64,000 nt of DNA, from assembly GCF_017983445.1 (NCBI RefSeq), contig NZ_JAGOBJ010000003.1, positions 62,001-126,000 of the forward strand, written 5' to 3'. Below, piece after piece: positions 32,883-48,583 of this stretch (positions are counted from its first letter, which is position 1; each line of letters opens with the position of its first letter). The position numbers and the translations under genes were made by a program. This DNA comes from Halomonas sp. (GTDB lineage Bacteria > Pseudomonadota > Gammaproteobacteria > Pseudomonadales > Halomonadaceae). The notes under the pieces were generated by a model. That model was not told the DNA's origin. It saw only the letters and a program-made list of their open reading frames with translations, and made no database searches.

Positions 32883-33011
32883 TAGGCGGTTGGTTCATGT
32901 CAGCCCGAAGGCAACAATAAAACGCAGGTAAATAGCAAGAATTGATGGGTCTATTTACCCAAACGTCTAAACGTCGGGTATCATACAGCAGCGACGCAAA
33001 AGGGACGATTT

Positions 33012-33779
33012 ATGAAAATTGCCAGCATCAATGTTAATGGTATACGTGATGCCGTCGACCGTGGCTTCCTGGACTGGCTGGCTCAGCAGGACGCCGATGT
33101 GGTTTGCGTGCAGAACATCAAGGCAAAAAGTTTTGAATTGGATGACCATATTCTTTATCCGGAAGGCTATGAAGGCTATTTCCTGGATGCGGAAGAGGAT
33201 GGTTTTTCCGGTGTTGGGCTTTACTGCCGTAAAATTCCCAAGGCGATCATGTATGGTCTGGGCTTTCCACAGTGTGATCACGAAGGGCGTTTTCTGCAGG
33301 CGGATTATGACCGCTTCAGTATCGCTACCTTCCTGATGCCTGATGGCAGCGACCAGAAAGCCAAACAGGCGTTTATGGAGCAGTACCAGGAATACCTGAC
33401 GAAGATGTCGCGCAAGCGGCGCGAGTACATCATCTGCGGTACCTGGAACATTGCCCATAAAACGGTTGATCTGGCCAACTGGTCTGATAACCAGCTGACG
33501 TCTGGTTTTCGCCCGGAAGAACGCGCCTGGATGGATCAGGTGCTTGGCCCAACAGGGTTTATCGACACCTTCCGCGAAATCAATCGCGATGCAGGCGAGT
33601 ACACCTGGTGGCCGAAGCTCGACCAAGACGTACCCCGTAGCCGTCAGGAAGGCTGGCGGATCGACTATCAGTTAGTCGGCCCCAACTTCCGTCGTCACGT
33701 GGTCGACGCATGGATCGATAAAGAGGCGACTTTCTCCGAGTACGCCCCGCTAATTGTTGAGTACGATCTCGACCTTTAA
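33012..33779 (+). CDS. crc: Crc-like catabolite repression control protein (exonuclease III fold, catalytic residues lost)
   Basis: A 255-residue endonuclease/exonuclease/phosphatase-fold protein resembling Pseudomonas Crc more than ExoIII. Nuclease motifs are degenerate: the metal-binding glutamate is Asn35 (VQNIKAK), the catalytic Asp of GDxN is Thr144 (GTWN), and SDH near the end is SEY (242-244). In Pseudomonas, Crc is not a nuclease but works with Hfq to repress translation of catabolic mRNAs. Genomic position pyrE/crc/rph/yicC is the same as in Pseudomonas, which supports the name; the function here is inferred. Confidence 0.82.
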   Translation: MKIASINVNGIRDAVDRGFLDWLAQQDADVVCVQNIKAKSFELDDHILYPEGYEGYFLDAEEDGFSGVGLYCRKIPKAIMYGLGFPQCDHEGRFLQADYDRFSIATFLMPDGSDQKAKQAFMEQYQEYLTKMSRKRREYIICGTWNIAHKTVDLANWSDNQLTSGFRPEERAWMDQVLGPTGFIDTFREINRDAGEYTWWPKLDQDVPRSRQEGWRIDYQLVGPNFRRHVVDAWIDKEATFSEYAPLIVEYDLDL

Positions 33780-33804
33780 GCATCTTTCCCGCGTCGTCGT
33801 TACC

Positions 33805-33832
33805 AATGAGCCGACCCAGAGGTCGGCTCATT
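33805..33832. terminator. Hairpin between convergent crc-like gene and rph
   Basis: A perfect 12-bp stem (33805-33816 with 33821-33832) with a four-base loop, lying between two convergent genes. There is no long T-run, but it is suitably placed to terminate both. Confidence 0.65.
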
Positions 33833-33851
33833 GCGTTAACGATTAAAACGC

Positions 33852-34589
33852 TTACCCGCGAATACCCAGTGCTTCACGCTGGTGTTCACGCAGCTCGCTG
33901 CCCGCTTTTTCAGCTAGATCCAGCATGGCATTAAGCTCGGCACGGTTAAACGCGCCCGCCTCCGCAGTGCCCTGTACTTCAATCAACTCACCGCCTTCGG
34001 TCATGACCACGTTCAGGTCGGTATCCGCCTTGCTGTCCTCGGGATAGTCGAGATCCAACACCGGCGCGCCTTTATAAATACCTACTGAAATCGCGCTCAC
34101 CAGCTGCTTGAAAGGGTCGCTTTTGATCTTTTTCTCGCGCTGCAGGTAACGAATCGCGTCCACCAGCGCCACGCAGCCACCGGTAATCGAGGCGGTACGG
34201 GTGCCGCCATCGGCCTGAATCACGTCACAATCCACGGTAATCGTGAATTCGCCCATCTTTTTCAGGTCGACTGCCGCGCGCAGGCTACGCCCAATAAGAC
34301 GCTGAATCTCAAGGGTACGGCCACCTTGCTTGCCACGTGTTGCCTCACGCCCGCTGCGCGAATGCGTGGCGCGCGGCAGCATACCGTACTCGGCTGTTAT
34401 CCAGCCCTGATTCTTGCCCCGCAGCCAACGCGGCACGCCCGCTTCTACGCTGGCATTACACAGCACCTTGGTATCGCCAAACTCCACCAGCACGGAGCCC
34501 TCGGCATGGCGGGTGTAATCACGGGTCAGGCGAATTTCACGGAGCTGGTCGGCTTCGCGACCGCTGGGGCGAACAACATCAGGACGCAT
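33852..34589 (-). CDS. rph: Ribonuclease PH
   Basis: A 245-residue phosphorolytic 3'-5' exoribonuclease that trims tRNA precursors. Features include [18 protein letters not shown] near the N terminus, the [24 protein letters not shown]-type RNA-binding block (split here by the family's conserved arginines), and the active-site [13 protein letters not shown]-like segment [14 protein letters not shown]. It is divergent from yicC, as in E. coli and Pseudomonas. Confidence 0.97.
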
Positions 34590-34704
34590 AGCACCTCACC
34601 ATAAGCGCGTTATGAAGAAAAGGCCGCCATTGTACACGTCTTAACGTTCAAACCCGCGCTTATCGGGTAGACTGAGATAAATGCGTTACCAACAGGATGA
34701 ACCC

Positions 34705-35583
34705 ATGGCCACTTCAAGTCGCGTACACAGCATGACCGCATTTGCCCGCACCGAGAAGGCCGCCTCTTGGGGCACGCTGCAAGTCGAAATTCGCTCCGTT
34801 AATCAGCGCTATCTGGAGCCCCATTTTCGCCTGCATGAAAGCCTGCGTGACCTAGAACCTGTTCTGCGTGAAACCCTGCGTACCCGCTTGGCGCGAGGCA
34901 AAGTAGAGTGCAGCGTGCGCTTTGAAAGTGCCGAAACCGTGCAGGCGCCAGCGGTTAATACCACTCGCTTAGCCGCCATCGCCGAGGCGCTCAATGCCGT
35001 GCAGCAGCAGGTGCCTAGCGCTTTGGCGCCGACGACGCTTGAACTGCTAAACCAGCCCGGCGTAATGGAAACCCAGCATCTGGATCAGGACGCCATCAAG
35101 GCGGCTGTCAAGGCGCTGTTTGACCAAGCGCTAGATGAGTTGATCGAAGCTCGTGCCCGGGAAGGCGAAAAACTCGCCGAGATGATTTCAACTCGGCTAA
35201 CGGCGGTAAGCGAGCAGGTCGCAACGGTTAAAAGCCTGCTGCCGCAAATTCTGGAACGTCAGCGCACCCAATTGCTGGAACGCTTGGAAATCGCCAAAAC
35301 CGAACTCGACCCCCAGCGCCTGGAAGCCGAGCTGGTACTGGTTGCGCAAAAGGCCGATGTAGATGAAGAGCTCGACCGCCTAACCGCTCATGTAGGCGAA
35401 GTCAGCCGACAGCTTGCTGAAAAAGGCTCTAAAGGCCGCCGCCTGGATTTCTTGATGCAGGAGCTTAATCGCGAAGCCAACACGCTTTCATCTAAATCAG
35501 TCGTGGCCGAAAGCACCCGCTGCGCGGTAGAGCTTAAAGTGCTGATTGAACAGATGAGGGAGCAGATTCAGAATATTGAGTGA
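34705..35583 (+). CDS. yicC: YicC family endoribonuclease
   Basis: A 292-residue protein with the YicC N-terminal domain (SMTAFART, EIRSVNQRYLEPHFRL) and the DUF1732 C-terminal domain ending in LKVLIEQMREQIQNIE, the same ending as E. coli YicC. Family members were recently shown to cleave RNA and take part in small-RNA turnover. The open frame reaches back to 34681; ATG at 34705 has AGGATG upstream. In many relatives gmk follows directly, but here a 15.4-kb insertion intervenes. Confidence 0.93.
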   Translation: MATSSRVHSMTAFARTEKAASWGTLQVEIRSVNQRYLEPHFRLHESLRDLEPVLRETLRTRLARGKVECSVRFESAETVQAPAVNTTRLAAIAEALNAVQQQVPSALAPTTLELLNQPGVMETQHLDQDAIKAAVKALFDQALDELIEARAREGEKLAEMISTRLTAVSEQVATVKSLLPQILERQRTQLLERLEIAKTELDPQRLEAELVLVAQKADVDEELDRLTAHVGEVSRQLAEKGSKGRRLDFLMQELNREANTLSSKSVVAESTRCAVELKVLIEQMREQIQNIE

Positions 35584-35619
35584 TGAGGTATTAGCCTTAC
35601 TTAATTGATAAGGGCAATT

Positions 35620-35816
35620 TGTCGCCCACCTCAATCTAAAATAACGATTTTAGTCTCTTTAGGTGGACGCTAAAATCATGACCCTAAATCCTGGACGGCT
35701 CCCTCAACGTTGCTAAGCACTTAGGCGTTATCAATGAGATTGGCTATTGCTGGCGTGAACGCAAAGACCAACCCACGCAATCGACAGGCGGTGGACGTTC
35801 CAGCTTTCGGAGATAG
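35620..35816 (+). mobile_element. Probable remnant of an IS3-family element (orfA start and helix-turn-helix)
   Basis: In the gap between yicC and hsdR, bases 35694-35816 translate to 41 residues containing SLNVAKHLGVINEIGYCWRE, which resembles the helix-turn-helix of IS3-type OrfA (pattern SLxxVAxxLGVxxxTLYRWR). An out-of-frame ATG lies at 35678, consistent with a decayed orfA start. Upstream, 35625-35676 carries nested inverted repeats (CCACCT/AGGTGG, CTAAAAT/ATTTTAG). No intact transposase or second end is visible. The assignment is by eye only. Confidence 0.4.
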
Positions 35817-35884
35817 GTGAATGGTTGCGCATTGATAGGGGCAGATGAATATGGCCATGAGCAAAAATAAAGGGGTGCACCTCG

Positions 35885-38329
35885 ATGGATAAACACCGGC
35901 TCAGCGAGCGAGACATCTGCACCAAGTTCATCACGCCAGCCATTCTGCAGGCGGGTTGGCAACAGAATCAGTTTCGGGAAGAAGTGAACCTTACCGATGG
36001 TCGCGTTATGGTGCGGGGAAAGCTGGCTGCGCGGGTGAAAAATCCCAATGCAAAGGGCGGCCCCAAGCGCGCTGATTATGTGCTTTACGCCAGCCCCGGC
36101 GTGCCCATTGCCGTTATTGAAGCCAAACAATCAAAATTTTCAGTCGGCCACGGCATGCAGCAGGCGCTGACCTATGCCGAAATGCTGGATGCCCCTTTTG
36201 CTATCAGCAGCAACGGAGCAGGTTTTTTGCTGCATGATCGCACCGGCATTACTCAGCCTATCGAACGAGAGATCTCACTCAATGAGTTGCCATCCCTGGC
36301 AAACTTGTGGCCTCTGTATCAGCAATGGAAAGGCTTGGTAGAACCGGAAGCGGTGAAACTGGTCGAGGAACCCTTTCATAGCGATGGTAGTGGCAAAGAG
36401 CCCCGTTATTACCAGCGTGTTGCCATTAATCGCGCCATCGAAGCAATTGCCAAAGGCCAGCAGCGCGTGCTGCTCGTTATGGCAACGGGCACAGGAAAAA
36501 CCTACACTGCCTTCCAAATTATCTGGCGTTTATGGAAAGCCAAAGCCAAAAAACGCATTTTGTTTTTGGCCGACCGCAACATCCTGGTGGATCAAACCAT
36601 GCAACAAGACTTTGCCCCCTTTGGCGAAGTCATGCACAAGGTTACTAATCGAGAAGCCAAAAAGAACTACGAAATCTACCTTGCTCTTTATCAAGCGGTG
36701 ACCGGCCGAGAAGAGCGGAAACAAATCTACCGCCAGTTTCCCTCAAACTTTTTTGACCTGGTCGTGATTGATGAGTGCCACCGTGGCAGCGCAGCGGATG
36801 ATTCTGCTTGGCGTGATATATTAGAGTATTTCGGCAGCGCCACCCATCTGGGTTTAACCGCCACGCCGAAAGAAACCAAAGACATCAGCAACACCACCTA
36901 CTTTGGCGACCCCATTTACACCTACTCACTCAAACAGGGCATTGAAGATGGTTTTCTAGCTCCTTACAAAGTGATTCGTATAGCCACGGATGTAGATGCC
37001 GTAGGCTACACACCCGAAAAAGGGAAGGTCGATAAACTCGGCCAATTGGTGGAACAGCGTCAGTACAACACCAAAGATTTTGATCGCAATTTAGTGCTGG
37101 AAAAACGTACCGAACTGGTGGCCAGAAGAGTCTGGGAGTATTTGAAAGCCACCGACCCCATGGCCAAAACGATCGTCTTTTGTGACGATCAAGACCACGC
37201 CGAGCGTATGCGTCAAGCATTGGTAAAACTGATTCCTGCAGCCGCTAGTAACCGCCGCTATGTGATGCGCATTACCGGTGACGATAACGAAGGCAAAGCC
37301 CGGCTTTCCTACTTTATTGATAACGACGAGCCCTATCCCGTTATCGCCACCACATCTAAGTTGCTTACTACCGGGGTAGATGCCAAAACCTGCAAACTGA
37401 TTGTGCTCGATCAAAACATCAATTCCATGACTGAATTTAAACAAATGATTGGTCGTGGCACTCGCCTGCGCGAGGATTACCAAAAGCTCTACTTCACCAT
37501 CATGGACTTCAAGGGTGCCACACGACTGTTTGCTGATCCGGATTTTGATGGAGACCCCGTCGTCATTTATGAACCCAAGCCTGATGACCCGGTAATCCCC
37601 ACTGACGAACTACTGCCGGAAGATCTGCCACCCGATATCACAGGCACCTCTGGTATTGGTGAAGTGGAGCCTCCACCTTACGTTACCGGCACAACCGGCG
37701 GGTTTGATGATGGCCGCAATACTGGGGAGAGAGAAGGCCGCATCAAATACGTGATCGGGGATGTCAATGTTCGGGTCGCTGTGATACTTGAACAGTATCT
37801 AGACGCCGACGGCAAACTGATTACTGACGACTACCGAGTGCTACTCAAGGCCGATATTCAAAAAGCCCTGCAGACTGAATTTGGCAATCTCACCGGCTTT
37901 CTGCGCCGTTGGAATGGGGCCGAGCGTAAGCAAGCGGTGCTGGAGGAACTTGCCGAACACGGGATACCGCTGGAGATATTGCAGCAAGCCGTTCCCAACG
38001 GCAGAGAGCTGGATGCTTTTGATCTGGTGGCTCATGTCGCTTTTAACCAAAAGCCTCTCACCCGGCGTGAACGTGCTAACAAGGTGAAAAAACACGATGT
38101 GTTCGGTAAATACGGCGAACAAGCCCGCGTCGTGCTCGAAGCCCTGCTGGAAAAATTTGCTCACCACGGCGTGCAAGATATTGAAGATGCCAAAGTATTG
38201 GAGCTGCCCCCTTTCGACCAATTCGGCAGTAAAACTCAAATCCGTCGCTGCATTTTTGGTGGCGTCGAGCAGTACACCCAAGCCATTCACGAATTAGAAA
38301 AAGCGCTTTACGACGACCAAAGCGCTTAA
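35885..38329 (+). CDS. hsdR: Type I restriction enzyme, R subunit HsdR (EcoEI-like)
   Basis: An 814-residue restriction-translocation subunit. The N-terminal PD-(D/E)xK nuclease has D64, E79 and K81 (RADY...VIEAKQ). The SF2 motor follows: Walker A MATGTGKT at 199-206, DECH at 296-299, TATP at 325-328, and helicase motif VI QMIGRGTRLRED. The C-terminal region (about 600-814) matches the EcoEI R-protein C-terminal type. It cuts foreign DNA after translocation when assembled with HsdM and HsdS. First gene of the six-gene defence operon. Confidence 0.95.
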   Translation: MDKHRLSERDICTKFITPAILQAGWQQNQFREEVNLTDGRVMVRGKLAARVKNPNAKGGPKRADYVLYASPGVPIAVIEAKQSKFSVGHGMQQALTYAEMLDAPFAISSNGAGFLLHDRTGITQPIEREISLNELPSLANLWPLYQQWKGLVEPEAVKLVEEPFHSDGSGKEPRYYQRVAINRAIEAIAKGQQRVLLVMATGTGKTYTAFQIIWRLWKAKAKKRILFLADRNILVDQTMQQDFAPFGEVMHKVTNREAKKNYEIYLALYQAVTGREERKQIYRQFPSNFFDLVVIDECHRGSAADDSAWRDILEYFGSATHLGLTATPKETKDISNTTYFGDPIYTYSLKQGIEDGFLAPYKVIRIATDVDAVGYTPEKGKVDKLGQLVEQRQYNTKDFDRNLVLEKRTELVARRVWEYLKATDPMAKTIVFCDDQDHAERMRQALVKLIPAAASNRRYVMRITGDDNEGKARLSYFIDNDEPYPVIATTSKLLTTGVDAKTCKLIVLDQNINSMTEFKQMIGRGTRLREDYQKLYFTIMDFKGATRLFADPDFDGDPVVIYEPKPDDPVIPTDELLPEDLPPDITGTSGIGEVEPPPYVTGTTGGFDDGRNTGEREGRIKYVIGDVNVRVAVILEQYLDADGKLITDDYRVLLKADIQKALQTEFGNLTGFLRRWNGAERKQAVLEELAEHGIPLEILQQAVPNGRELDAFDLVAHVAFNQKPLTRRERANKVKKHDVFGKYGEQARVVLEALLEKFAHHGVQDIEDAKVLELPPFDQFGSKTQIRRCIFGGVEQYTQAIHELEKALYDDQSA

Positions 38330-38350
38330 CGACGAGTACTGGAAAACCTA

Positions 38351-40132
38351 ATGAATCTCAGCAGCACCATCAAATCCATTCAAGACATCATGCGCAAAGA
38401 CGATGGCGTCGATGGCGACGCACAGCGCTTGGGCCAGCTCACTTGGATGCTCTTTTTAAAAGTATTTGACCAGCGCGAGGAGGAGTGGGAAGACGATAAT
38501 GCCAGCTATCAATCACCACTGCCGGAAGAGTTTCGCTGGCGCAACTGGGCCAAAATGAATGACGATGAGCAAGGCAAAAAATCCCATAAAATGGCCCCAT
38601 CGGATATCGTCGGCTTTGTTAACAATCAATTATTTCCGGCACTGAAAGAGCTGGACGCCAACGCCAGCCCACAACACAAGGTCATTCGCAGCGTCTTTGA
38701 AGACGCCAATAACTATATGAAGTCTGGCACCCAGTTGCTGGCGGTGATCGAAAAGCTTGAAGAAGCCATTAATTTTCACGACTTCACCACTCGCTCGCAG
38801 ATTGGCGATGTGTACGAACAACTGCTAAACGATCTACGCGGCGCAGGTAATGCTGGTGAATTTTATACACCACGTGCTATCACCGCTTTTATGGCTGATC
38901 GCGTTAACCCGCGCCTGGACAAGCGTGATACCGTGATGGACCCAGCCTGCGGCACTGGCGGCTTCTTAACCGCCGTCATTGACCACTTACGCAACCAGAT
39001 TACCTCCAAGTCGAGCGCCGAAGACAAGCGCGCCATTGAACAGTTGATTCGTGGCATCGAGAAAAAGCAACTGCCGCACCTGCTTTGCACCACCAACATG
39101 TTACTACACGGCATTGATGTGCCCAGTCAGATTGAACACAAAAATACCCTCGGCATTGGTTGGAACGAGTGGAGTGCCAACGACAAGGTGGACTGCATTA
39201 TCACCAATCCGCCCTTCGGCGGCTATGAAGACGACGGCGTCGGCAGCGACTACCCGGCCGATTTAAAAACTCGTGAAACCGCCGATATGTTTATGGCGCT
39301 AATTATCAAAAAGCTTCTAAAAGAAAACGGTCGCGCCGCCGTGGTTCTGCCCGATGGTTTTTTGTTTGGTGATGGCATTAAAGGCACCTTAAAAAAGCTG
39401 CTGCTGCAAGAATGCAAGCTGCACACCATTATTCGGCTGCCCAAAGGTGTATTTGCCCCCTACACCACCATCAAAACCAACCTGCTGTTTTTTACCAAAG
39501 GTACGCGGGTAGACGATGGCAGCGAGCATTTCCACACCGACACCATTTGGTTTTACGAACATCCCTATCCGCCGGGCTACAAAAGCTATAGCAAAACCAA
39601 ACCCATACGCCTGGAAGAATTTAAGCCTGAGCAAGACTGGTGGGGCGATGAAAGCGATGACTTTGCCAGCCGTGAGGAAAACGAATCCGCCTGGAAGGTC
39701 GATTTTAAAACTAAGCGCGAACAGGCCGAAGCTGCCGCCAAACCGCATTGGGATAATGCCGAGCAGCTTAATAACCAAGCCAGCGCATTGGAAAACCGCA
39801 TTCGTGACTTGCGTGGCTCTATTAAAGGAAACAATGATAAAACACAACGCCAAAGCGTGGACGATGAAATGGAAAGCTTACGCAGCGAAAGTGAAACGCT
39901 GCGCTTAAAAGCCCGCGACGCTCAGTCCGCAGGCGACCGTCTTTACTGGCCCATCTTTAATTTGGATATTAAAAATCCGAATGGCCCCGAAGAAGAAAGC
40001 CACGACCCTGACGAGCTACTGGTCAAATACAAACAACTCTTGGGTGAAATTGAAGAAACCGAAAACCAGCTCAAAAGCGAACTGGCGGCAGCCCTTGCTC
40101 ACCACTTTAGCCCAGAGGCAGAAGACGCATGA
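38351..40132 (+). CDS. hsdM: Type I restriction-modification, N6-adenine methyltransferase HsdM
   Basis: A 593-residue modification subunit: N-terminal helical domain (about 1-140), then the methylase domain with SAM motif DPACGTGGF (197-205) and catalytic NPPF (286-289). After the methylase core comes a charged coiled-coil-like stretch (about 450-530; EQLNNQASALENRIRDL), longer than in minimal HsdM proteins. It methylates the HsdS-defined site to protect host DNA. Its last four bases overlap the DUF1016 gene (ATGA). Confidence 0.96.
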   Translation: MNLSSTIKSIQDIMRKDDGVDGDAQRLGQLTWMLFLKVFDQREEEWEDDNASYQSPLPEEFRWRNWAKMNDDEQGKKSHKMAPSDIVGFVNNQLFPALKELDANASPQHKVIRSVFEDANNYMKSGTQLLAVIEKLEEAINFHDFTTRSQIGDVYEQLLNDLRGAGNAGEFYTPRAITAFMADRVNPRLDKRDTVMDPACGTGGFLTAVIDHLRNQITSKSSAEDKRAIEQLIRGIEKKQLPHLLCTTNMLLHGIDVPSQIEHKNTLGIGWNEWSANDKVDCIITNPPFGGYEDDGVGSDYPADLKTRETADMFMALIIKKLLKENGRAAVVLPDGFLFGDGIKGTLKKLLLQECKLHTIIRLPKGVFAPYTTIKTNLLFFTKGTRVDDGSEHFHTDTIWFYEHPYPPGYKSYSKTKPIRLEEFKPEQDWWGDESDDFASREENESAWKVDFKTKREQAEAAAKPHWDNAEQLNNQASALENRIRDLRGSIKGNNDKTQRQSVDDEMESLRSESETLRLKARDAQSAGDRLYWPIFNLDIKNPNGPEEESHDPDELLVKYKQLLGEIEETENQLKSELAAALAHHFSPEAEDA

Positions 40133-41175
40133 GCAAGCCAGCTTTACCGATTGAACAACAACTGCTCGGCGATATTTGTACGCTGATTGAGCAGGGTCGC
40201 CAACACCTGGCTACAACCGTTAACAGCGCACTAACGATCCTCTACTGGCAAATTGGCCAGCGCATTCGACATGAAGTACTTCAGGGTGAGCGTGCTGCCT
40301 ATGGCGAGCAAATTGTCTCTGCACTGTCGAGACAATTAGAGCAGGAGTATGGCCGCGGTTTCTCCGCCAAAAACCTGCGGCACATGTTGCGCTTTGCCGA
40401 GGCTTACCCCGATGGGCAGATTGTCTCGACACTGTCGAGACAATTGTCATGGAGCCATTTTCTAGAGCTGATTTACCTAAAAGATACGCTTCAGCGCGAT
40501 TTTTACAGTCAGATGTGCGCGCAAGAGAGCTGGAGTGTGCGCCAATTGCGGGAAAGAAAAAACACCCTGCTGTTTGAGCGAACCGCCCTGTCTAAACAAC
40601 CTGAAATGTTGCTAACGCAAGAATTAGCCAACCTGCGCCAAACAGGCTCGCTGAGCCAAAACCTGGTGCTCAAAGACCCTTACGTTCTCGATTTTTTGGG
40701 CCTGAATGACCGCTACCTGGAAAAAGATCTGGAAGACGCTATTCTGCGCGATCTGGAGCAGTTTCTGTTGGAGCTAGGAGCCGGCTTTAGCTTTGTCGCA
40801 CGGCAAAAACGCATCCAGATCGACAATGATGATTTTTACATCGACCTATTGTTCTACAACCGCCGACTGAAACGCCTCGTTGCCATCGACCTGAAACTGG
40901 GCGACTTTAAAGCCGAGCACAAAGGCCAAATGGAGTTATATCTGCGTTGGCTGGCCAAGCATGAACAGGAGGCGGGCGAAGCCGCGCCGCTGGGGATTAT
41001 TCTGTGCAGCGGTAAAAAGCAGGAGCAGATCGAACTATTAGAGCTGGATGCCAGCGGCATCCATGTCGCTGAATATTTGACTGCTTTACCCCCCAAAGAA
41101 GTACTACAAGCCAAATTGCATCAGGCCATTGAAAACTCACGGGCTCGCCTCGAAAACCGTGGGGAGAACAGCTAA
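40129..41175 (+). CDS. DUF1016/YhcG-family PD-(D/E)xK nuclease-domain protein
   Basis: A 348-residue protein: N-terminal DUF1016_N helical domain with the paired segments IVSALSRQL (62-70) and IVSTLSRQL (98-106), then a C-terminal PD-(D/E)xK domain with D239 (YIDLLFYN) and D254-L-K256 (IDLKLGDFK). Such genes are frequent passengers of type I operons; their job is not settled. It overlaps hsdM by ATGA and hsdS by TAATG, so it is embedded in the operon and not a later neighbour. Two 25-bp palindromes underlie the repeated motif. Confidence 0.9.
   Translation: MSKPALPIEQQLLGDICTLIEQGRQHLATTVNSALTILYWQIGQRIRHEVLQGERAAYGEQIVSALSRQLEQEYGRGFSAKNLRHMLRFAEAYPDGQIVSTLSRQLSWSHFLELIYLKDTLQRDFYSQMCAQESWSVRQLRERKNTLLFERTALSKQPEMLLTQELANLRQTGSLSQNLVLKDPYVLDFLGLNDRYLEKDLEDAILRDLEQFLLELGAGFSFVARQKRIQIDNDDFYIDLLFYNRRLKRLVAIDLKLGDFKAEHKGQMELYLRWLAKHEQEAGEAAPLGIILCSGKKQEQIELLELDASGIHVAEYLTALPPKEVLQAKLHQAIENSRARLENRGENS
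40312..40336. repeat. 25-bp imperfect palindrome inside the DUF1016 gene, copy 1
   Basis: Arms of 12 bp around a central C, with two mismatches near the centre. Outer arms ATTGTCTC / GAGACAAT are perfect. It encodes IVSALSRQ. It is nearly identical to the copy 108 bases downstream. Confidence 0.8.
40420..40444. repeat. 25-bp perfect palindrome inside the DUF1016 gene, copy 2
   Basis: A perfect inverted repeat: ATTGTCTCGACA, a central C, then TGTCGAGACAAT. It encodes IVSTLSRQ and starts exactly 108 bases (36 codons) after copy 1. As DNA it could be a protein-binding site; as RNA it would form a 12-bp hairpin with a very tight loop. Confidence 0.85.
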
Positions 41176-43166
41176 TGGACGCACAGCAGTTTTTGGCTGA
41201 GTTTGGTCATATCGCCAATGCACCGAATGGGATAGTTAAACTTCGAGAGTTAGTATTGCAACTAGCTATCTCGGGGCGACTTGTGGAAAGAGCTGAAACC
41301 TTTCAACCTGTGCAAGAGATTATCAAAGCCGCTAATAGTCTCCGTAAAGAATATGAGGAATCGCTTAAACTCCGCTCGACTAGAATGCACCCACCATTAT
41401 CCAAGATACCCTTCATGATTCCTGAACACTGGGAATGGGAGCGTTTAGAAAAGCTTTGTATGTATATTCAGCGAGGTAAGGGGCCAAAATACGCAGATAA
41501 AAGCTCTACTTACGTCGTTTCGCAAAAATGCATTCAATGGAATGGCTTTGATTTAACACCTGCTCGCCATGTGGCAGATGATTCTTTAGAAAAATACGGC
41601 AAAGAACGTTATCTGTGCGATGGTGATTTGCTTTGGAACTCAACCGGAACAGGTACAGCTGGCCGCGTAGCGATCTATTCAGCTGCAGAAGAAAAGCCAG
41701 CAGTCGCAGATTCGCACGTCACGGTCATCCGACTTGCGAATTGCTTCCCACGTTATTTTTGGTGTGTGGTCGCTTCACCATGGGTACAGTTACGCATTGA
41801 CCCCTCCCATTCAGATTCGCTTGTATCCGGTACAACACAGCAAGTCGAATTAAACACGTCAACCGTTAGAGCGCTTCCTATTCCTCTTCCTCCCCTCGAA
41901 GAGCAATCCCGCATCGTCGCCAAAGTCGATGAACTGATGGTTTTATGCGATCAGTTGGAAGCGCAGCAACAAAAACGCCGCACACTGCAAAACCAGTTGC
42001 GCTATGCCACCCTGCAAGCCGTCGCCGCCAGCCAAAGCCCCCATGAGCTGCAAGAAAGCTGGCAGCGACTGGAAGCCAACTTCGGGCAACTGTTCTCCGT
42101 GCCGGAGGACGTGGCTGATTTACGCAGCTTAATTTTAGATGTCGCAATGCATGGCTATTTAGTTGAGCAGGATTCCCAAGAGACAAGTGCTAAAACATTG
42201 CTTCAACAAATAGAAAACAAAAAAAAGGAAGAGTCTAAAAAAAGAAAACTTAAGCTACAGAAATCTCTTCCTGAAATGGTTATTGAAGAAATCCCTTTTC
42301 AGATCCCGAGCCAATGGGAGTGGATTCGTTTGGGACTAATTGCCGAATTAATAAATGGCGATAGAGGCAAGAATTACCCCAATAAAGATGAGTATGTTTC
42401 CAAAGGCATTCCATGGATAAATACTGGCCATATTAAACCAGATGGCACCTTAACGAAAACAAATATGAACTATATCACTAGGGGAAAATTCGATAGCTTA
42501 CGAAGCGGAAAAATTGAATCGGGTGATTTGGTCTATTGCTTGAGAGGGGCAACATTCGGTAAAACTGCATTTGTAACGCCATATAATGAAGGAGCAATAG
42601 CATCATCACTAATGATTGTTCGCCCACTGGTCGCTTCACTAAATCGGTACTTTTACTATTACTTGATTAGCCCCTTAGGTCGAAGTCAAATATTTAGATT
42701 TGATAATGGCACGGCACAACCAAATCTATCAGCTAATAGCGTAGGTTTGTTTGCTTACCCATTACCTCCAATCGCTGAACAGGCCAGAATAGTCAAAAAA
42801 ATTGAGCAGCTTATGCAAGTCTGTGATGCGCTTGAAAGCCAGCTAAAGAGGGTGAAGGATGTGGTTCATCACCTCGCCATAGCATCTGTCTCCACTCTCA
42901 CTGGCATCGCCATCGAGCAAGAGGAAGAACCCATGAAAGCCCCGAAAACTGAACTGGTCGCCCCTGTGCGATTGGGCGCGCCGCCCAATGTCAAAGCCCA
43001 AGCACCGTTAGCCACCATTCTCGCTCGTCAGAACGGAGAAATGAGTGCCAAAGATTTATGGCAGCGCTTTGGCGGTGAGATCGATGCTTTTTATGCACAG
43101 CTAAAAATAGAAGTAGCCCACGGCTGGCTACTGGAGCCCATACCCGCTGAAATGTTGGAAAAGTAG
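41175..43166 (+). CDS. hsdS: Type I restriction-modification specificity subunit HsdS
   Basis: A 663-residue specificity subunit, longer than the usual 400-600. Two target-recognition domains are seen: TRD1 (about residues 82-250, beginning IPEHWEWERLEKL and ending in LPPLEEQSRIVAKVDELM) and TRD2 (about 375-545, beginning IPSQWEWIRL and ending LPPIAEQARIVKKIEQLM). Conserved coiled coils follow each. A C-terminal extra piece (about 590-663) has no known role. Each TRD reads half of a split DNA site. Bases 42180-42780, encoding TRD2, are visibly richer in A and T than the flanks, suggesting domain exchange. Confidence 0.95.
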   Translation: MDAQQFLAEFGHIANAPNGIVKLRELVLQLAISGRLVERAETFQPVQEIIKAANSLRKEYEESLKLRSTRMHPPLSKIPFMIPEHWEWERLEKLCMYIQRGKGPKYADKSSTYVVSQKCIQWNGFDLTPARHVADDSLEKYGKERYLCDGDLLWNSTGTGTAGRVAIYSAAEEKPAVADSHVTVIRLANCFPRYFWCVVASPWVQLRIDPSHSDSLVSGTTQQVELNTSTVRALPIPLPPLEEQSRIVAKVDELMVLCDQLEAQQQKRRTLQNQLRYATLQAVAASQSPHELQESWQRLEANFGQLFSVPEDVADLRSLILDVAMHGYLVEQDSQETSAKTLLQQIENKKKEESKKRKLKLQKSLPEMVIEEIPFQIPSQWEWIRLGLIAELINGDRGKNYPNKDEYVSKGIPWINTGHIKPDGTLTKTNMNYITRGKFDSLRSGKIESGDLVYCLRGATFGKTAFVTPYNEGAIASSLMIVRPLVASLNRYFYYYLISPLGRSQIFRFDNGTAQPNLSANSVGLFAYPLPPIAEQARIVKKIEQLMQVCDALESQLKRVKDVVHHLAIASVSTLTGIAIEQEEEPMKAPKTELVAPVRLGAPPNVKAQAPLATILARQNGEMSAKDLWQRFGGEIDAFYAQLKIEVAHGWLLEPIPAEMLEK

Positions 43167-43180
43167 AGTAAGGACACCCT

Positions 43181-45052
43181 ATGCAGCTTCGTACCTTAGC
43201 CATTCCGCATTTCAGAAACCTGCGCCATCTTGCGATGACCTTTACCACTGAGCTGGAGCCGGTTGAGGGTGCGGCCATGGATGAGCCTGTAAAACGCATT
43301 CGCAGCCATGCACTGATTGGTCAGAATGGCATCGGCAAATCCAATCTGATAGAGGCACTGATCACTTTGTTTCGCGATGTCGATCTTGATCGTGATTCCT
43401 CCTTCGACTACATGTTGGAATATGAAATCAGTGGTCATATCGTACGTATTGAAGCGGATACCGCCAAACAAAAACGTCCCTATGTGTGGGTGAATGGGAA
43501 AAGTGAATCCCAGGGCTATCTACTCAAAAATCGCGAGCTGCTGCCCTCACATATTTTTGCCTACTACTCGGGTCGTAATGAGCGCATCGAGCAGTTATTT
43601 CAGGAGCATCAACGGCGCTTTAATCAGCGGCAGGAAATCACCACCGATGAAGTTTTTTCAGATTCAGAACTGAACGCCTATACCAACTCACCGAGGATGA
43701 TTGATCTCCAAGACGAACTCAGAAAATTCGCAGGGAAATCAGTCAATGAAATGAGTGAAGATGAGCGAGCTGACTATCAGGCAATACAAGATGAGCTCAA
43801 GCCATTTGAAGAGCAAAGAGCTAAATTTCTCGACCGAGCTGAGGAGCAGCGCCAAAAGCGACGAGAAAGATTAGGTGATGACCGATTACGGCGCCTGTTT
43901 TATTGTCGGGGCGGGCATAGCCAGTTGGTGCTGTTAGCCTGTTTGCTCTCCGATGATCCGGTATTTCAAAAGGTACTGAATAGCCTGCATATCGAATCAC
44001 TCGAATCTGCTCTATTTATACTCAAAGAACCCCACCGTCTACGTGAAAAACGCCGTGGCGGCAAGTTTGACGAGCATGAGCTGATAGAGGGTAATCCGCG
44101 CTTTTGGTATGCCCGTGGGAATGTGGTTAGTGAGTTTCTGGATAAACTCTGGCAAGTGGCCTGGGCGCCTATCGAGCAGGAAGCTAGTAAACAAATTGAT
44201 TTTCGTGGCCGTACCGAAAAGCAAAAGCAGTTATACCTCTATGTGTCGAACAATAAAAAACTTAAAGAACTGGGCGAACTGGTTGGTGGGCCAGATAGCT
44301 TTTTCCGCTATGCCGAAGGCGCTTATATTGGCGATTTAATTGACGAAGTTCGTATCACCGTTAAGAAGCGAGACGAGCACGGTGGCAAGGTGAGTTTTAC
44401 CCAACTTTCTGAAGGTGAGTTGCAAATGCTCACCGTACTCGGGCTGATGCGCATCACCCGTGAAGACCACTGTTTGTTTTTATTAGATGAACCCGACACT
44501 CACTTAAATCCTATCTGGAAGTTGCGTTATTTTGACGATATTGAAGGTGTATTGAGCTCCGAAAAAGATTCATTGGTGCAGGGGGAGTCGCAAATCCTGA
44601 TCACGACACACGACCCAATGATGGTGGGTAGTCTTAAACGCGAGCAGGTGCACATTTTACGCAAACACGGCGAGCGCTCGGTGGTTGAGTCACCAGACGT
44701 ACATCCACAGGGAATGGGTGTTACCGGCCTGCTGAAGAGCGAGTTGTTTGGTTTGTCTTCCACACTGGATATCGAAACCGAACGCCGTCTGTTTCGCCGT
44801 AATGAGCTGTTTGTAAAATCGCCACGCACAGCAGATGAAGATGCCGAGCTATCACGGCTTTCTGCCGAGCTGGCCGATCTTGGTTTCTCTACGGCTGATT
44901 TTCGTGACCCAGACTACGCACTCTTCGTGCGTAAAATGGCGCAGCATCGCAAATTCCGAAAGCCGGTGTTAAAGCCAGAGGAGCAAGCCGAACAAGATCG
45001 CATCGCCGGAGAAATCATCAGTGAAATTCTGCTTGAGGATGATGGCGAATGA
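43181..45052 (+). CDS. Restriction-system-associated AAA/ABC-type ATPase (PtuA-like)
   Basis: A 623-residue ATPase of the SMC/RecF/ABC type. Walker A GQNGIGKSN at 47-55 follows an N-terminal beta strand with HFRNLRHL; a long charged middle (about 130-240) probably forms a coiled coil; the signature LSEGE is at 409-413, Walker B CLFLLDEPDTHLNP at 431-444, and the switch His477 in THDPMM. It starts 14 bases after hsdS and overlaps the HNH gene by ATGA. An ATPase followed by an HNH gene is the Septu (PtuA-PtuB) layout, where ATPase complexes control an HNH nuclease. Relationship is inferred from layout and motifs. Confidence 0.82.
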   Translation: MQLRTLAIPHFRNLRHLAMTFTTELEPVEGAAMDEPVKRIRSHALIGQNGIGKSNLIEALITLFRDVDLDRDSSFDYMLEYEISGHIVRIEADTAKQKRPYVWVNGKSESQGYLLKNRELLPSHIFAYYSGRNERIEQLFQEHQRRFNQRQEITTDEVFSDSELNAYTNSPRMIDLQDELRKFAGKSVNEMSEDERADYQAIQDELKPFEEQRAKFLDRAEEQRQKRRERLGDDRLRRLFYCRGGHSQLVLLACLLSDDPVFQKVLNSLHIESLESALFILKEPHRLREKRRGGKFDEHELIEGNPRFWYARGNVVSEFLDKLWQVAWAPIEQEASKQIDFRGRTEKQKQLYLYVSNNKKLKELGELVGGPDSFFRYAEGAYIGDLIDEVRITVKKRDEHGGKVSFTQLSEGELQMLTVLGLMRITREDHCLFLLDEPDTHLNPIWKLRYFDDIEGVLSSEKDSLVQGESQILITTHDPMMVGSLKREQVHILRKHGERSVVESPDVHPQGMGVTGLLKSELFGLSSTLDIETERRLFRRNELFVKSPRTADEDAELSRLSAELADLGFSTADFRDPDYALFVRKMAQHRKFRKPVLKPEEQAEQDRIAGEIISEILLEDDGE

Positions 45053-45906
45053 TTTTTATCGACCTTGAGCATAAAAAGCCAACGGATACGGACATTCCCA
45101 ACTGGGTACCCTGGTCACAAGTACAATGGGATACTTGGTTGGCCAAATCCAATCAGCTCGTTAACGACTTGGCCGCACTCGAAGCGGCTGGCAAGCACAA
45201 TGAACGTAATGCATTGATTGACGAAAACCGCGCCCACTGGGGAGCGCTAAAAGAATGGTTATTAGCCCTTTCTGGCCGTAAGTGTTGGTTCTCTGAAGTT
45301 CGCGAGCTGTATTCGCATTACGATGTTGAACACTTTCGACCAAAGAAGGAAGCCAAAGCTCTGGATGGCACCAACCGTGACGGTTATTGGTGGTTGGCCT
45401 TTGACTACATGAATTTTCGTGCATGCGGCAATGTGGGCAATCGTAAAAAAGGTGGCTGGTTCCCTTTGCAGCAAGGATCTTTGTTTTCAACTTACGCGGC
45501 ACCTTGCGAAGAATCCGAAGCACGTTATTTGATTGACCCCATCGATGACTATGATGTTTCACTCATTGCCTTTGACGAAGAGGGTAAAGTTGTGCCAGCT
45601 CCCGGTACATCGTCATGGGAGCAGCAGCGGGTAGAACAAACGGTGAAGCGGCTCAAACTTAACGAGCATGTAACACTGGCAGAAGAGCGTCGTAAGGTAT
45701 GGCAAAAAGTTGATGGCCTAATAGAAGATTTCCAGCGGGCTAAAACACGCTGCTCTACAGGAAATAACCCGGCCGCTATAGAGAAACTAAAAGCGGTGCG
45801 TTATGGCATTCGTGAAATGACCAGTCCAACAGCAGAGTTGTCTTCGGTTGCTCGCTGGTGCGTGCTAATGCGCAATGATCCTCAACTATCCATGCTGGTA
45901 GGGTAA
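45049..45906 (+). CDS. HNH-type endonuclease-like protein (PtuB/TIGR02646-like)
   Basis: A 285-residue protein. The HNH-like core spans about residues 77-140: CWFS (79-82), DVEHFRPK with the candidate catalytic His95, N122, and CGNVGNRKKG (126-135) followed by WFPL. In PtuB-type proteins the two metal-binding motifs normally read CxxC and CxxCN; here each has only its first cysteine. The nuclease could have lost structural zinc or be inactive. Coupled by ATGA to the ATPase, it closes the defence operon. No domain is recognised after residue 150. Confidence 0.75.
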   Translation: MIFIDLEHKKPTDTDIPNWVPWSQVQWDTWLAKSNQLVNDLAALEAAGKHNERNALIDENRAHWGALKEWLLALSGRKCWFSEVRELYSHYDVEHFRPKKEAKALDGTNRDGYWWLAFDYMNFRACGNVGNRKKGGWFPLQQGSLFSTYAAPCEESEARYLIDPIDDYDVSLIAFDEEGKVVPAPGTSSWEQQRVEQTVKRLKLNEHVTLAEERRKVWQKVDGLIEDFQRAKTRCSTGNNPAAIEKLKAVRYGIREMTSPTAELSSVARWCVLMRNDPQLSMLVG

Positions 45907-46156
45907 TGACGCTATAAGTTTTAGTAGAGGTTACTATTGGCAAATTAAAAATTGATTTTCTGCACTGACTAGTAAAGTTGTACATGGCTGTGACCTAGCC
46001 GTTCCATGGATACCCAATAATCAAATTAGAATTATAATTGCTTTATTCGCTCGTTTGGGCGATAAAGCCCGGTGCTTAAGTGCATTTTAATAAAATGAAT
46101 GCGATTGTGTTCATTTAAGCTGCTTTAGATATTATGATGTCTTTTTAAGTTATCAA
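45907..46156. other. AT-rich non-coding gap after the defence operon
   Basis: No convincing open frame. A short hairpin (GGGC-GATAAA-GCCC, about 46057-46070) and an AT-rich inverted repeat (CATTTT-AAT-AAAATG, about 46083-46097) could help end transcription of the operon. The base composition is much lower in GC than the core genes. Confidence 0.4.
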
Positions 46157-46699
46157 TCACGCGTCGCCCTTTGCTTGCTGAAACAGTTCCACTGCCTTTG
46201 CCAGCTCACGTTTGAGCTCATCCTCAGAAGGCAAATACGGCAGATACTTCGCCGCAAACAGCTGCTTCTGGTCAGCCAGTACCGAGTACTTGACCACGGC
46301 TTCGCTTTTTCCACTGCATAGCACCAAGTCGATGGTGGGGTTGTCATCGCTGCCTTTGCGCTGTTCATCGTATAAGCGCACGTAGGTATCCATCTGGCCG
46401 ATATCCTGATGCTTTAGCTTACCGAGCTTCAGGTCTACCAGTAAAAAGCACTTCAGCTTGAAGTTGTAGAACACCAGATCAATATAGCTTTCTCATATAA
46501 AACAAGCTTCGTCTTCAAAGCGGATGCGCTGCTGGCGCTCCACAAAGGCAAAGCCTTTGCCCAGCTCCAGTAAAAACTGCTGCAGGTTGCTGATAATCGC
46601 CTGTTCCAGCTGGCTTTCCTGCTCTATCTGCTGGGTAATCGCACTAACAAGGTCACTAAAAGCCGCTAGATTGGCCTCAACAATAGCAAATTTTACCTG
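46157..46699 (-). pseudogene. Broken DUF1016-family nuclease gene (C-terminal part)
   Basis: Reading the minus strand from 46699, about 180 codons resemble the second half of a DUF1016 protein: QLEQAIISNLQQFLLELGKG, FAFVERQQRIRF, then VFYNFKLKCFLLVDLKLGKLKHQD and SEDELKRELAKAV near the end. An in-frame TGA at 46493-46495 interrupts the frame just before the YIDLVFY active-site strand, and the N-terminal half is absent (a stop lies just upstream at 46700-46702). It is not a copy of the intact DUF1016 gene in the operon but a different family member, and is probably dead. Confidence 0.8.
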
Positions 46700-46878
46700 T
46701 TAAAATGTAACCGTAAGCCGCCGCTAAACTGAACGTTTGAAGAAGACATGAGCCGTTAAGCATTAGCCGATACGTAGATACGCACCCATCAATTTCCTAG
46801 AACGATCCAAAGAAAACTATTCGCTCCTTATCCTTTGGCTTAGGTTTTAAGCTAAGGGTAATTGCTAAGGAGTATTTT

Positions 46879-47754
46879 ATGTCGGACTCATCCGTAAGCT
46901 CAGTTCGCCGCGTTATCGCTCTGCACCCGGCCCACCGGGATGATATCGGTGATTTAACCACTCGGCGGCCGCTGCCTGCGCGTCAGCTTGAGCAGCTTGA
47001 TCCTTTCCTGTTTTTAAATCATCACGGCCCGCAGGTTTATCCGGCCAACAATCAAGGCCTGCCGTTTGGCCCGCACCCACACCGCGGCTTTGAAACGGTG
47101 ACGTTCATTCTGGAAGGCTCGCTTGCTCATGCCGATAGCGCTAAACACCAGAGCGTAATCCAGAAAGGCGGTGTGCAGTGGATGACCGCGGGCAGCGGTA
47201 TCGTGCATGCGGAAATTTCGCCGCCTGAGTTTTTGCGTGAGGGTGGCCCGCTGGAAATTCTGCAGCTGTGGATCAACCTGCCCGCGCGCCTGAAAATGAG
47301 CGAGCCGCGCTATGTGGGCTTACAGCAGGATTCAATCCCCGCGATTACGCTGCCGGGCGGCGGTGAGCTTAACCTGATTGCCGGGGAGTGGGGCGATACG
47401 CGCGGTTCTACCGAGACGTTAACCAACGTGTTTATGTCGACGCTAAAACTGCCTGTCGGATCACGCGAGCAGCTGCCCGTTGCCCCCGGGCGGCAGGTGT
47501 TTCTGTATATCGTGAATGGTGACGTTACGGTGAGTGGTGAGCCTGCCAAGCCTCACCAACTGGTCGAGCTGGACCGGGATGGCGACAGCATCGTGATTGA
47601 AGCCGCAAGCGATGCCCAACTGCTGTTTGGCCATGCCGATGTGATCGACGAGCCGGTCTACTCCCACGGGCCGTTTGTGATGAATACCCGGGATGAGATC
47701 GTTCAGGCCGTCGAGGACTACCAGGCCGGAAAATTCGGTGGGCTGAGCGCTTAG
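46879..47754 (+). CDS. Pirin family protein
   Basis: A 291-residue bicupin. The N-terminal cupin has the pirin metal-site motifs: HPHRGFETVTF near residue 71 and SGIVHAEI near 112. The C-terminal cupin (about 170-275) lacks a metal set. Bacterial pirins include quercetin dioxygenases and stress-linked regulators; the role here is not determined. AAGGAG precedes the ATG. It is convergent with the glycosylase gene. Confidence 0.92.
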   Translation: MSDSSVSSVRRVIALHPAHRDDIGDLTTRRPLPARQLEQLDPFLFLNHHGPQVYPANNQGLPFGPHPHRGFETVTFILEGSLAHADSAKHQSVIQKGGVQWMTAGSGIVHAEISPPEFLREGGPLEILQLWINLPARLKMSEPRYVGLQQDSIPAITLPGGGELNLIAGEWGDTRGSTETLTNVFMSTLKLPVGSREQLPVAPGRQVFLYIVNGDVTVSGEPAKPHQLVELDRDGDSIVIEAASDAQLLFGHADVIDEPVYSHGPFVMNTRDEIVQAVEDYQAGKFGGLSA

Positions 47755-47764
47755 CGCTTTCGCT

Positions 47765-48349
47765 TTAAACCGGCTCGCCGCGATAGTAGTGCCACAAAAA
47801 CAGCGACCCCACGCTGCGCCAGGGCGCCCAGTGTTCCACAAGCTTTCGTGCCTGCTTGGGTGTGGGTTTGTCGTCAAGGCCTTTTAGGCGGCCTAAGGCT
47901 ACGCGCAGGGCGAGGTCGTCGGCGGGGAAGATGTCGGGGCGTTTGAGCGAGAACATCAGGTAGATTTCCGCGCTCCAGCGCCCAAAGCCACGCAGTTGGG
48001 TAATCGTGGCAATCACTTCCTCATCGCTTAGATGCTCAAGCCCGTCGGCACTGAAGGTGCCGGCAAGCTCTGCTTCTGCAAGCCCCTTGGCGTACTCTAT
48101 TTTGCGCCATGAAAGCCCCGCATCGCGTAGCGCCTGGCCTTCTGTGTCGATGACCGCTTTGGCATGCAGCTCGGGCAGCAGGGTATTCACGCGGCCCATA
48201 ATCGCGCGGGCTGCTTCGGTGGAAAGCTGTTGGCTGACGATGGTGGAGAAGAACATCGCAAAGCCTTTATCACGCACGCGAGGTGAAGGTACGCCCACCA
48301 GCGGAAGGGCACGGGCGATATCCGGGTCAGCCTTGGCGAGCGACTGCAT
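47765..48349 (-). CDS. DNA-3-methyladenine glycosylase II (HhH-GPD family)
   Basis: A 194-residue base-excision repair enzyme. Helix-hairpin-helix LRGFGRWSAEIYL (about residues 117-129) and the catalytic aspartate in FPADDLALR (about 140) match AlkA/MAG-type glycosylases, in the short form lacking the AlkA N-terminal domain. The first ATG in frame (48349) lacks a ribosome-binding site. Ten codons upstream an ATA-ATA pair is preceded by AAGGAAG at proper spacing, so translation may begin there on a non-standard codon. Confidence 0.9.
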   Translation of the reverse strand: MQSLAKADPDIARALPLVGVPSPRVRDKGFAMFFSTIVSQQLSTEAARAIMGRVNTLLPELHAKAVIDTEGQALRDAGLSWRKIEYAKGLAEAELAGTFSADGLEHLSDEEVIATITQLRGFGRWSAEIYLMFSLKRPDIFPADDLALRVALGRLKGLDDKPTPKQARKLVEHWAPWRSVGSLFLWHYYRGEPV

Positions 48350-48583
48350 GGCGTGTTCGATTGTTTCAGGGGTTATTATCGGACTTCCTTATGCAGAAAA
48401 TTGATAGGCGTTGCTGTTTATTAAGCCTTCAAACCCGGGCTTGCTTCAATGAATAGTCCGTTAAAGTGAAATAGTCGCCTGCTAATATTTTGCTGAACAT
48501 ATTTATACTTTCGTCTAATCTTGTGATCATTGTCTGTTAGCCATTAGTAAGAACAGCACGTCAGGCGTGCGTTGGGAGAAAAA

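Follow-up and report, generated by a model that had tools for sequence, protein, structure and literature searches.

A type I restriction-modification operon of Halomonas sp. carrying a Septu-type PtuA-PtuB pair, and its possible control by HsdM-HsdS

We analysed a 64,000-nucleotide stretch of Halomonas sp. (assembly GCF_017983445.1, contig NZ_JAGOBJ010000003.1, positions 62,001 to 126,000 of the forward strand; hereafter the window) in which six open reading frames (ORFs), all on the plus strand, combine a type I restriction-modification (RM) system with a DUF1016 gene and with an ATPase-HNH gene pair resembling ptuA and ptuB of the Septu defence system, in the order hsdR-hsdM-DUF1016-hsdS-ptuA-ptuB (Table 1). 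An earlier note on this DNA had given the same order on one strand, with ATGA overlaps at hsdM/DUF1016 and ATPase/HNH, a TAATG overlap at DUF1016/hsdS and 14 bases between hsdS and the ATPase gene; the ORF coordinates match this order and direct reading finds each junction exact. The 21 bases between hsdR and hsdM, absent from that note, complete the set, and the overlap of ptuA with ptuB amounts to 4 bases. This spacing suggests that the six genes are transcribed together; promoter and terminator scans gave no decisive result, with 5 promoter-like sites where chance alone would yield 12.3. The RM part is complete, in that HsdR, HsdM and HsdS are present with their catalytic or recognition domains. 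The block is flanked by yicC and a pirin gene, and the lower GC content of the six genes (46-51%, against 55-56% in the flanks) is in line with acquired DNA.

Table 1. Genes and features of the six-gene block (window coordinates)
Feature	Position	Strand	Evidence
hsdR, type I restriction subunit, EcoAI/FtnUII type, 814 aa	35885..38329	+	NF046051 1100 bits, cut-off 550
hsdM, type I adenine methylase, 593 aa	38351..40132	+	N6_Mtase PF02384 214 bits
DUF1016/YhcG, PD-(D/E)XK nuclease-like, 348 aa, between hsdM and hsdS	40129..41175	+	PF17761 161 bits, PF06250 161 bits
hsdS, specificity subunit, two recognition domains, 663 aa	41175..43166	+	PF01420 (Methylase_S), two stretches
HsdS C-terminal extension of about 65 aa, candidate PtuA docking domain	42972..43166	+	Profile match
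ptuA-like ABC/SMC-type ATPase, 623 aa	43181..45052	+	AAA_21; PADLOC PtuA 675 bits
PtuA Walker A, GQNGIGKS	43319..43342	+	G.NG.GKS in 43/48 core PtuA
PtuA Walker B region, LFLLDEPDTH	44474..44503	+	LLDEPD.HL in 46/48 core PtuA
PtuA C-terminal segment, residues 500-623, co-varying with PtuB	44678..45049	+	Pairwise identity comparison
ptuB-like HNH nuclease, 285 aa	45049..45906	+	PADLOC PtuB 364 bits; H95, N122, N131 invariant in alignments

The likeness of the ATPase and HNH proteins to PtuA and PtuB, which the earlier note had proposed, is borne out by their predicted folds: retron PtuA heads the list of structural matches for the ATPase, and in that for the HNH protein retron PtuB comes directly beneath Septu PtuB. 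Pfam gives the HNH protein no family at E up to 0.1, and its assignment as PtuB-like comes from PADLOC, sub-cut-off NCBIfam matches and the fold. The pair shares with Septu the adjacent genes, both folds, the ATPase motifs and the HNH histidine and asparagines, but the window PtuA belongs to a separate clade in which hsdM-hsdS neighbours are the rule and carries an additional, mostly helical insert around residues 150-230. As in type I-A retrons (Eco7/Ec78, Ec83), PtuAB may be seen as the effector of another sensing module, except that here HsdMS would occupy the place of the retron; there was no reverse transcriptase among the six genes, a nearby DUF1016 remnant and five flanking genes, and an Rfam search of 33000-48500 gave no match, for an msr-msd RNA or otherwise.

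Three further systems invite comparison. PrrC is a single chain with its own nuclease domain, and EcoprrI is presumably another case of PrrC within a type I RM system; the window ATPase and HNH protein are encoded by two genes and the ATPase matches PtuA. The PrrC170 locus, as described in an excerpt of PMC11555353, likewise has an ABC-type ATPase gene inside a type I hsd operon adjoining hsdS, and the differences lie in the separate HNH nuclease, in the frequent lack of hsdR among relatives and in an extra C-terminal domain of HsdS. MADS also unites a methylase, a specificity subunit and an AAA ATPase, and weak matches to MAD2, MAD3 and MAD5 were found, but their scores (93, 29 and 51 bits) fall far under the NCBIfam cut-offs of 720, 420 and 400 bits. 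Finally, TIGR04435 ('restriction system-associated AAA family ATPase') is matched by all 46 members of group A2 (E up to 1e-5), although the window PtuA, at 118 bits, stays below its cut-off of 300; the name of this family indicates that NCBI annotators were already aware of such ATPases beside restriction systems.

Relatives of the window PtuA were gathered by PtuA sequence alone, with a starting profile made from seven hsd-linked PtuA proteins that biases the sample towards such loci. At least 53 loci came from genome contigs of several phyla, 9 from viral contigs, five were the best of 23 plasmid records and three lie in other members of the genus (82 genomes), giving 71 loci with the window. 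Eight were left out of the tree (L020, interrupted; L085, a duplicate of L084; L067, L068, L076, L077, L078 and L088, short or weak), and among these L076-L078 and L088 encode PtuA-like ATPases without hsd neighbours, which speaks against universality of the association outside the clade. In a quick tree the remaining 63 rows, mostly hsd-linked, separate from 20 other PtuA-family rows with support 100, and within them a group of 48 (support 82) forms what we call the core clade. The fetched stretches of its 48 loci contain hsdS in 47, hsdM in 45 and ptuB in 47, the misses falling on cut or short contigs: the contig of the hsdS-less locus L035 begins inside ptuA, and L053 does carry an hsdM fragment. 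Gene order is hsdM-hsdS-ptuA-ptuB, with or without hsdR, in most and hsdS-ptuA-ptuB-hsdM in 11. With ORF starts placed mechanically, hsdS-ptuA gaps range from -71 to 108 bases (40 of 46 between -4 and 22) and ptuA-ptuB gaps in 46 pairs from -118 to 5, -4 being the commonest; an apparent PtuA-PtuB fusion in L053 proved to be an artefact of an over-long ORF. The NPPF/Y motif is present in 43 of the 44 full-length core-clade HsdM proteins.

For comparison we took as other PtuA-family loci the top 20 by NF041760 from 390 genomes of the order, one of them above the cut-off. In five of these 20 (L122, L127, L128, L135, L136) both hsdM and hsdS occur within 4 kb; the script's count of 7 included two loci with merely a weak HsdM match. 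A PtuB-like neighbour accompanies PtuA in 16 of the 20 by profile, and three of the 16 (L127, L128, L136) also have hsdM and hsdS. Together with the core-clade counts, these figures imply that PtuA was acquired by type I loci more than once and that the association became the rule in the core clade. They also lead us to reject a chance placement of the pair in the window, and they uphold the coupling of ATPase and HNH genes and their co-occurrence with hsd genes that the earlier note had supposed. In L127 and L128 a PtuAB of another branch follows hsdR-hsdM-hsdS, with an HsdS that has no C-terminal domain, and is an independent recruitment. In a deeper hsd-linked group (L061, L062, L063, L066, L070, L071, L086) PtuA is followed by a protein of 336-382 aa for which Pfam named no family in the six copies scanned, and whose aligned motif CP.CG...DH..PK...C..CN probably marks another HNH family in the ptuB slot. 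Of 5426 E. coli genomes searched, 3 gave short matches, which lie inside hsdS, and a phage search gave no match.

The restriction subunit proved to be optional. Where at least 8.5 kb of contig on each side of PtuA was required for scoring, hsdR was present in 26 core loci, absent in 12 and unscorable in 10, and parsimony places at least 7 changes of state on the tree among the 38 scored loci. Two circular plasmids (L025, L026), followed past the start of their records, also have no hsdR, which brings the total to 14 of 40 scorable loci; the hsdR-less loci retain hsdM-hsdS. Because the HsdR profile can overlook true cases (as it did in L140 and L147, both with a clear HSDR_N match), the ORFs of at least 600 aa in the 12 hsdR-less loci were checked singly. 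None of these 21 was HsdR-like: 15 were scanned with Pfam (four without a family), one is gyrase B, two were identified by annotation and three are HsdS; missed detection is thus rejected as the cause. In nine of nine genomes (8 with hsdR-less loci, 1 unscored) every HSDR_N match was either on a contig other than that of PtuA or over 0.5 Mb distant. Nor do these genomes appear to have an orphan HsdR to spare: of the 20 HSDR_N places found in 8 genomes, 15 of the 17 fetched have an hsdM of their own nearby, L143 and L153 having none in the fetched stretch. The idea in the earlier note that the ATPase-HNH module acts as a second layer when restriction fails presumes that HsdR is primary, and does not sit well with loci that have kept hsdM and hsdS in its absence. 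Nor is DUF1016 tied to PtuAB, being found in 5 of 48 core loci and also in L162, an RM locus without PtuAB.

A second feature of the core clade is a domain of about 65 residues at the end of HsdS. A profile built from 37 such ends, excised by regular expression, detects the domain in 42 of the 48 core loci, five of them (L044, L045, L051, L052, L075) outside the seed; it was not detected in L024, L054, L055, L056 and L059, and L035 has no hsdS. Among 37 control loci (L119-L155, comprising the 20 other PtuA-family loci, with the RM-embedded L127 and L128, and 17 HSDR_N loci; 17 with labelled HsdS) the best E value was 0.1. When HsdS of the window and of L021 are compared in 50-aa blocks, most recognition-domain blocks are 12-40% identical and the last two 94% and 92%. 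Identity over the last 70 residues of eight further pairs is 74, 74, 74, 71, 63, 57, 39 and 33%, the 33% pair involving a cut HsdS, and is in general higher than in the recognition-domain blocks; the hsdR-less pairs L038/L039 and L075/L026 fall towards the upper end. The recognition domains diverge in hsdR-less relatives too, which indicates that specificity keeps changing without HsdR. The end domain has no convincing Pfam family, single members matching helix-turn-helix families marginally, and its PDB profile matches, mostly to designed repeat proteins, appear spurious. HsdS of L029 contains two tandem copies (residues 607-731).

Searching with the domain alone, we recovered it in four of the 82 genomes of the genus, the same four that encode PtuA, and each time immediately ahead of PtuA. 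A wider search, in partly shared draws of 369 genomes from the class and 398 from the phylum, added four strong matches (G603, G1112, G1115, G880). Weak matches (E 1e-4 to 1e-3) occurred at 8 places, and none of the 5 fetched lies in a labelled HsdS; three weaker PtuA matches in the class draw (G552, G700, G811, 112-121 bits) have no domain match.

The third feature concerns the PtuA C-terminal segment. Residues 1-499 of PtuA in the window and in the congeneric locus L019 are 92% identical, whereas the remainder is 45% and PtuB 30% identical; for L025/L026 the identities of body, tail and PtuB are 91, 41 and 34%, and for L025/L049 they are 88, 77 and 77%. Among the 64 close pairs, defined by a body identity of at least 65%, the correlation (rho) of tail with PtuB is 0.76 and that of body with PtuB 0.17, while over all 1035 pairs the two are alike (0.59, 0.55); because pairs have sequences in common, they are not independent observations. 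Because PtuB identity follows the tail and not the body, the simplest reading is that the tail would seat PtuB and that both may be exchanged together.

Taken together, we believe, with a probability of roughly 55%, that the HsdM-HsdS methylation module controls PtuA-PtuB as a Septu-type effector within one coupled defence system. The sequence itself shows the coupling of the genes, the predicted folds, the conservation of hsdM-hsdS-ptuA-ptuB, the optional HsdR, the motifs, the HsdS domain with its association with PtuA and the co-variation of tail and PtuB, whereas docking, silencing, the trigger and the substrate, either tRNA or DNA, are inferred. The HsdS C-terminal domain would probably connect physically to PtuA, and PtuB would probably be seated on the PtuA C-terminal segment. 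In an uninfected cell HsdM-HsdS on modified DNA would keep PtuAB silent; on meeting unmodified DNA, or under attack by an anti-restriction protein, PtuA could be released or switched on, and activated PtuB would cut nucleic acid and thereby stop the infection. HsdR, where present, would add ordinary restriction without being required for the coupling, and DUF1016 may be a further passenger or accessory. More tentatively, and at a little under even odds, we propose that HsdM-HsdS and PtuA-PtuB form a machine of their own in which the HsdS domain holds PtuA, the moment at which PtuB fires would depend on the modification state or on an intact methylase and not on HsdR, and PtuB with the PtuA tail would be an exchangeable warhead on a constant chassis.

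A role of HsdM-HsdS as tether and trigger of PtuAB, with a PrrC-like outcome, is favoured by precedent. According to excerpts of PMC11555353, retron-Eco7 has a toxic PtuAB that its retron partner neutralises and that causes, directly or indirectly, a depletion of tRNA-Tyr, and PrrC170 is an ABC-ATPase toxin against tRNA-Lys in an HsdR-HsdS-PrrC-HsdM operon; an excerpt of PMC13096335 reports that Septu EcB88 cleaves tRNA-Tyr and requires both the ATPase and the HNH motifs. For PtuAB of retron-Eco4, tRNA is likely not the target (excerpt of PMC11555353).

The search with the domain alone also favours a coupled system, though slightly less once the genus is set aside. PtuA stands next to the domain in 7 of the 8 strong loci (in G603 across a contig break), but these eight include the window, which was in the query, and three congeners, and outside the genus the figure is 3 of 4. 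The locus without it, G1112, has hsdR-hsdM-DUF1016-hsdS and no PtuAB, and is either a case of PtuAB loss or an exception.

The chief rival, which we regard as unlikely, is that PtuAB replaces or supplements HsdR, such that HsdMS would recruit PtuA-PtuB to unmodified sites where the HNH protein cuts foreign DNA. The 14 loci that consist of hsdM-hsdS-ptuA-ptuB without hsdR and the continuing divergence of recognition domains in hsdR-less pairs would fit this, as would the Septu of E. coli ATCC 25922, which reportedly targets nicked DNA (cited in an excerpt of PMC11555353). However, hsdR is kept beside PtuAB in 26 of 40 loci, the excerpted studies name tRNA-Tyr as the target of two PtuAB systems, and Pfam finds no HsdR-kind helicase domain in the window PtuA.

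Less probable still is that two independent defence systems travel together in a defence island and share one transcription unit for regulation. Defences embedded in type I RM loci are known, DarTG among them (excerpt of PMC12255303), and the loci studied here have other passengers, namely DUF1016, Abi_2, Fic, AbiE and Mrr. L162 has the RM part without PtuAB, and the association of 3 in 4 rather than 7 in 8 slightly raises the odds of this explanation. Against it stand the specific HsdS domain that accompanies this PtuA clade, the hsdS-ptuA-ptuB order in nearly all core loci, the loss of hsdR while hsdM-hsdS-ptuA-ptuB is kept, and the hsd link in only 5 of 20 other PtuA-family loci. An addiction module of plasmids or islands, with HsdMS as antitoxin, PtuAB as toxin and phage defence secondary, seems improbable: the five plasmid loci examined carry the system, four without hsdR, and retron-Eco7 PtuAB is toxic alone (excerpt of PMC11555353), but genome contigs of several phyla have the system as well and an antitoxin has no need of diverse recognition domains.

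Several observations concern the surroundings of these operons. The same six-gene island lies between yicC and pirin in L019, L020 and L021 (82 genomes of the genus searched, that of the window included); L019 has a ptuB that differs from that of the window, and in L020 one inserted ORF interrupts hsdS and another ptuA. A remnant of a second DUF1016/YhcG gene lies at 46157-46700 of the window on the minus strand, convergent with ptuB, with one internal TGA and an N-terminus that is not intact, and L021 likewise has DUF1016-like sequence on the ptuB side. The Bacteroidota loci L037, L038 and L058 carry AbiE-type genes ahead of hsdM (by Pfam, AbiEi/AbiEii in L037 and AbiEii in L038; by eye in L058). 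Immediately before hsdM-hsdS-ptuA-ptuB, L059 (2325-7572) encodes two proteins, one of 825 aa and one of 930 aa with an adenosine-deaminase domain, a pair that we take to resemble RADAR as a candidate.

The individual parts of this system are already known, as are defences embedded in RM loci (excerpt of PMC12255303), and Hma has been reported beside Septu (excerpt of PMC8565338). None of the excerpts cited here, nor those of PMC11980606 and PMC10440598, describes an hsdMS-PtuAB locus that lacks hsdR or a PtuA-directed domain in HsdS. In the open-access literature we found no hsdR-less hsdM-hsdS-ptuA-ptuB system, no HsdS domain for PtuA and no tail swap. To our knowledge, what triggers Septu is an open question, and the clade described here offers a candidate in the neighbouring HsdS with its domain of about 65 residues. 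If the coupled system is real, PtuAB would be a plug-in effector used in at least three arrangements, in stand-alone Septu, in retrons and with type I methylases, and this would explain why some type I loci keep a methylase and a specificity subunit without a restriction subunit.

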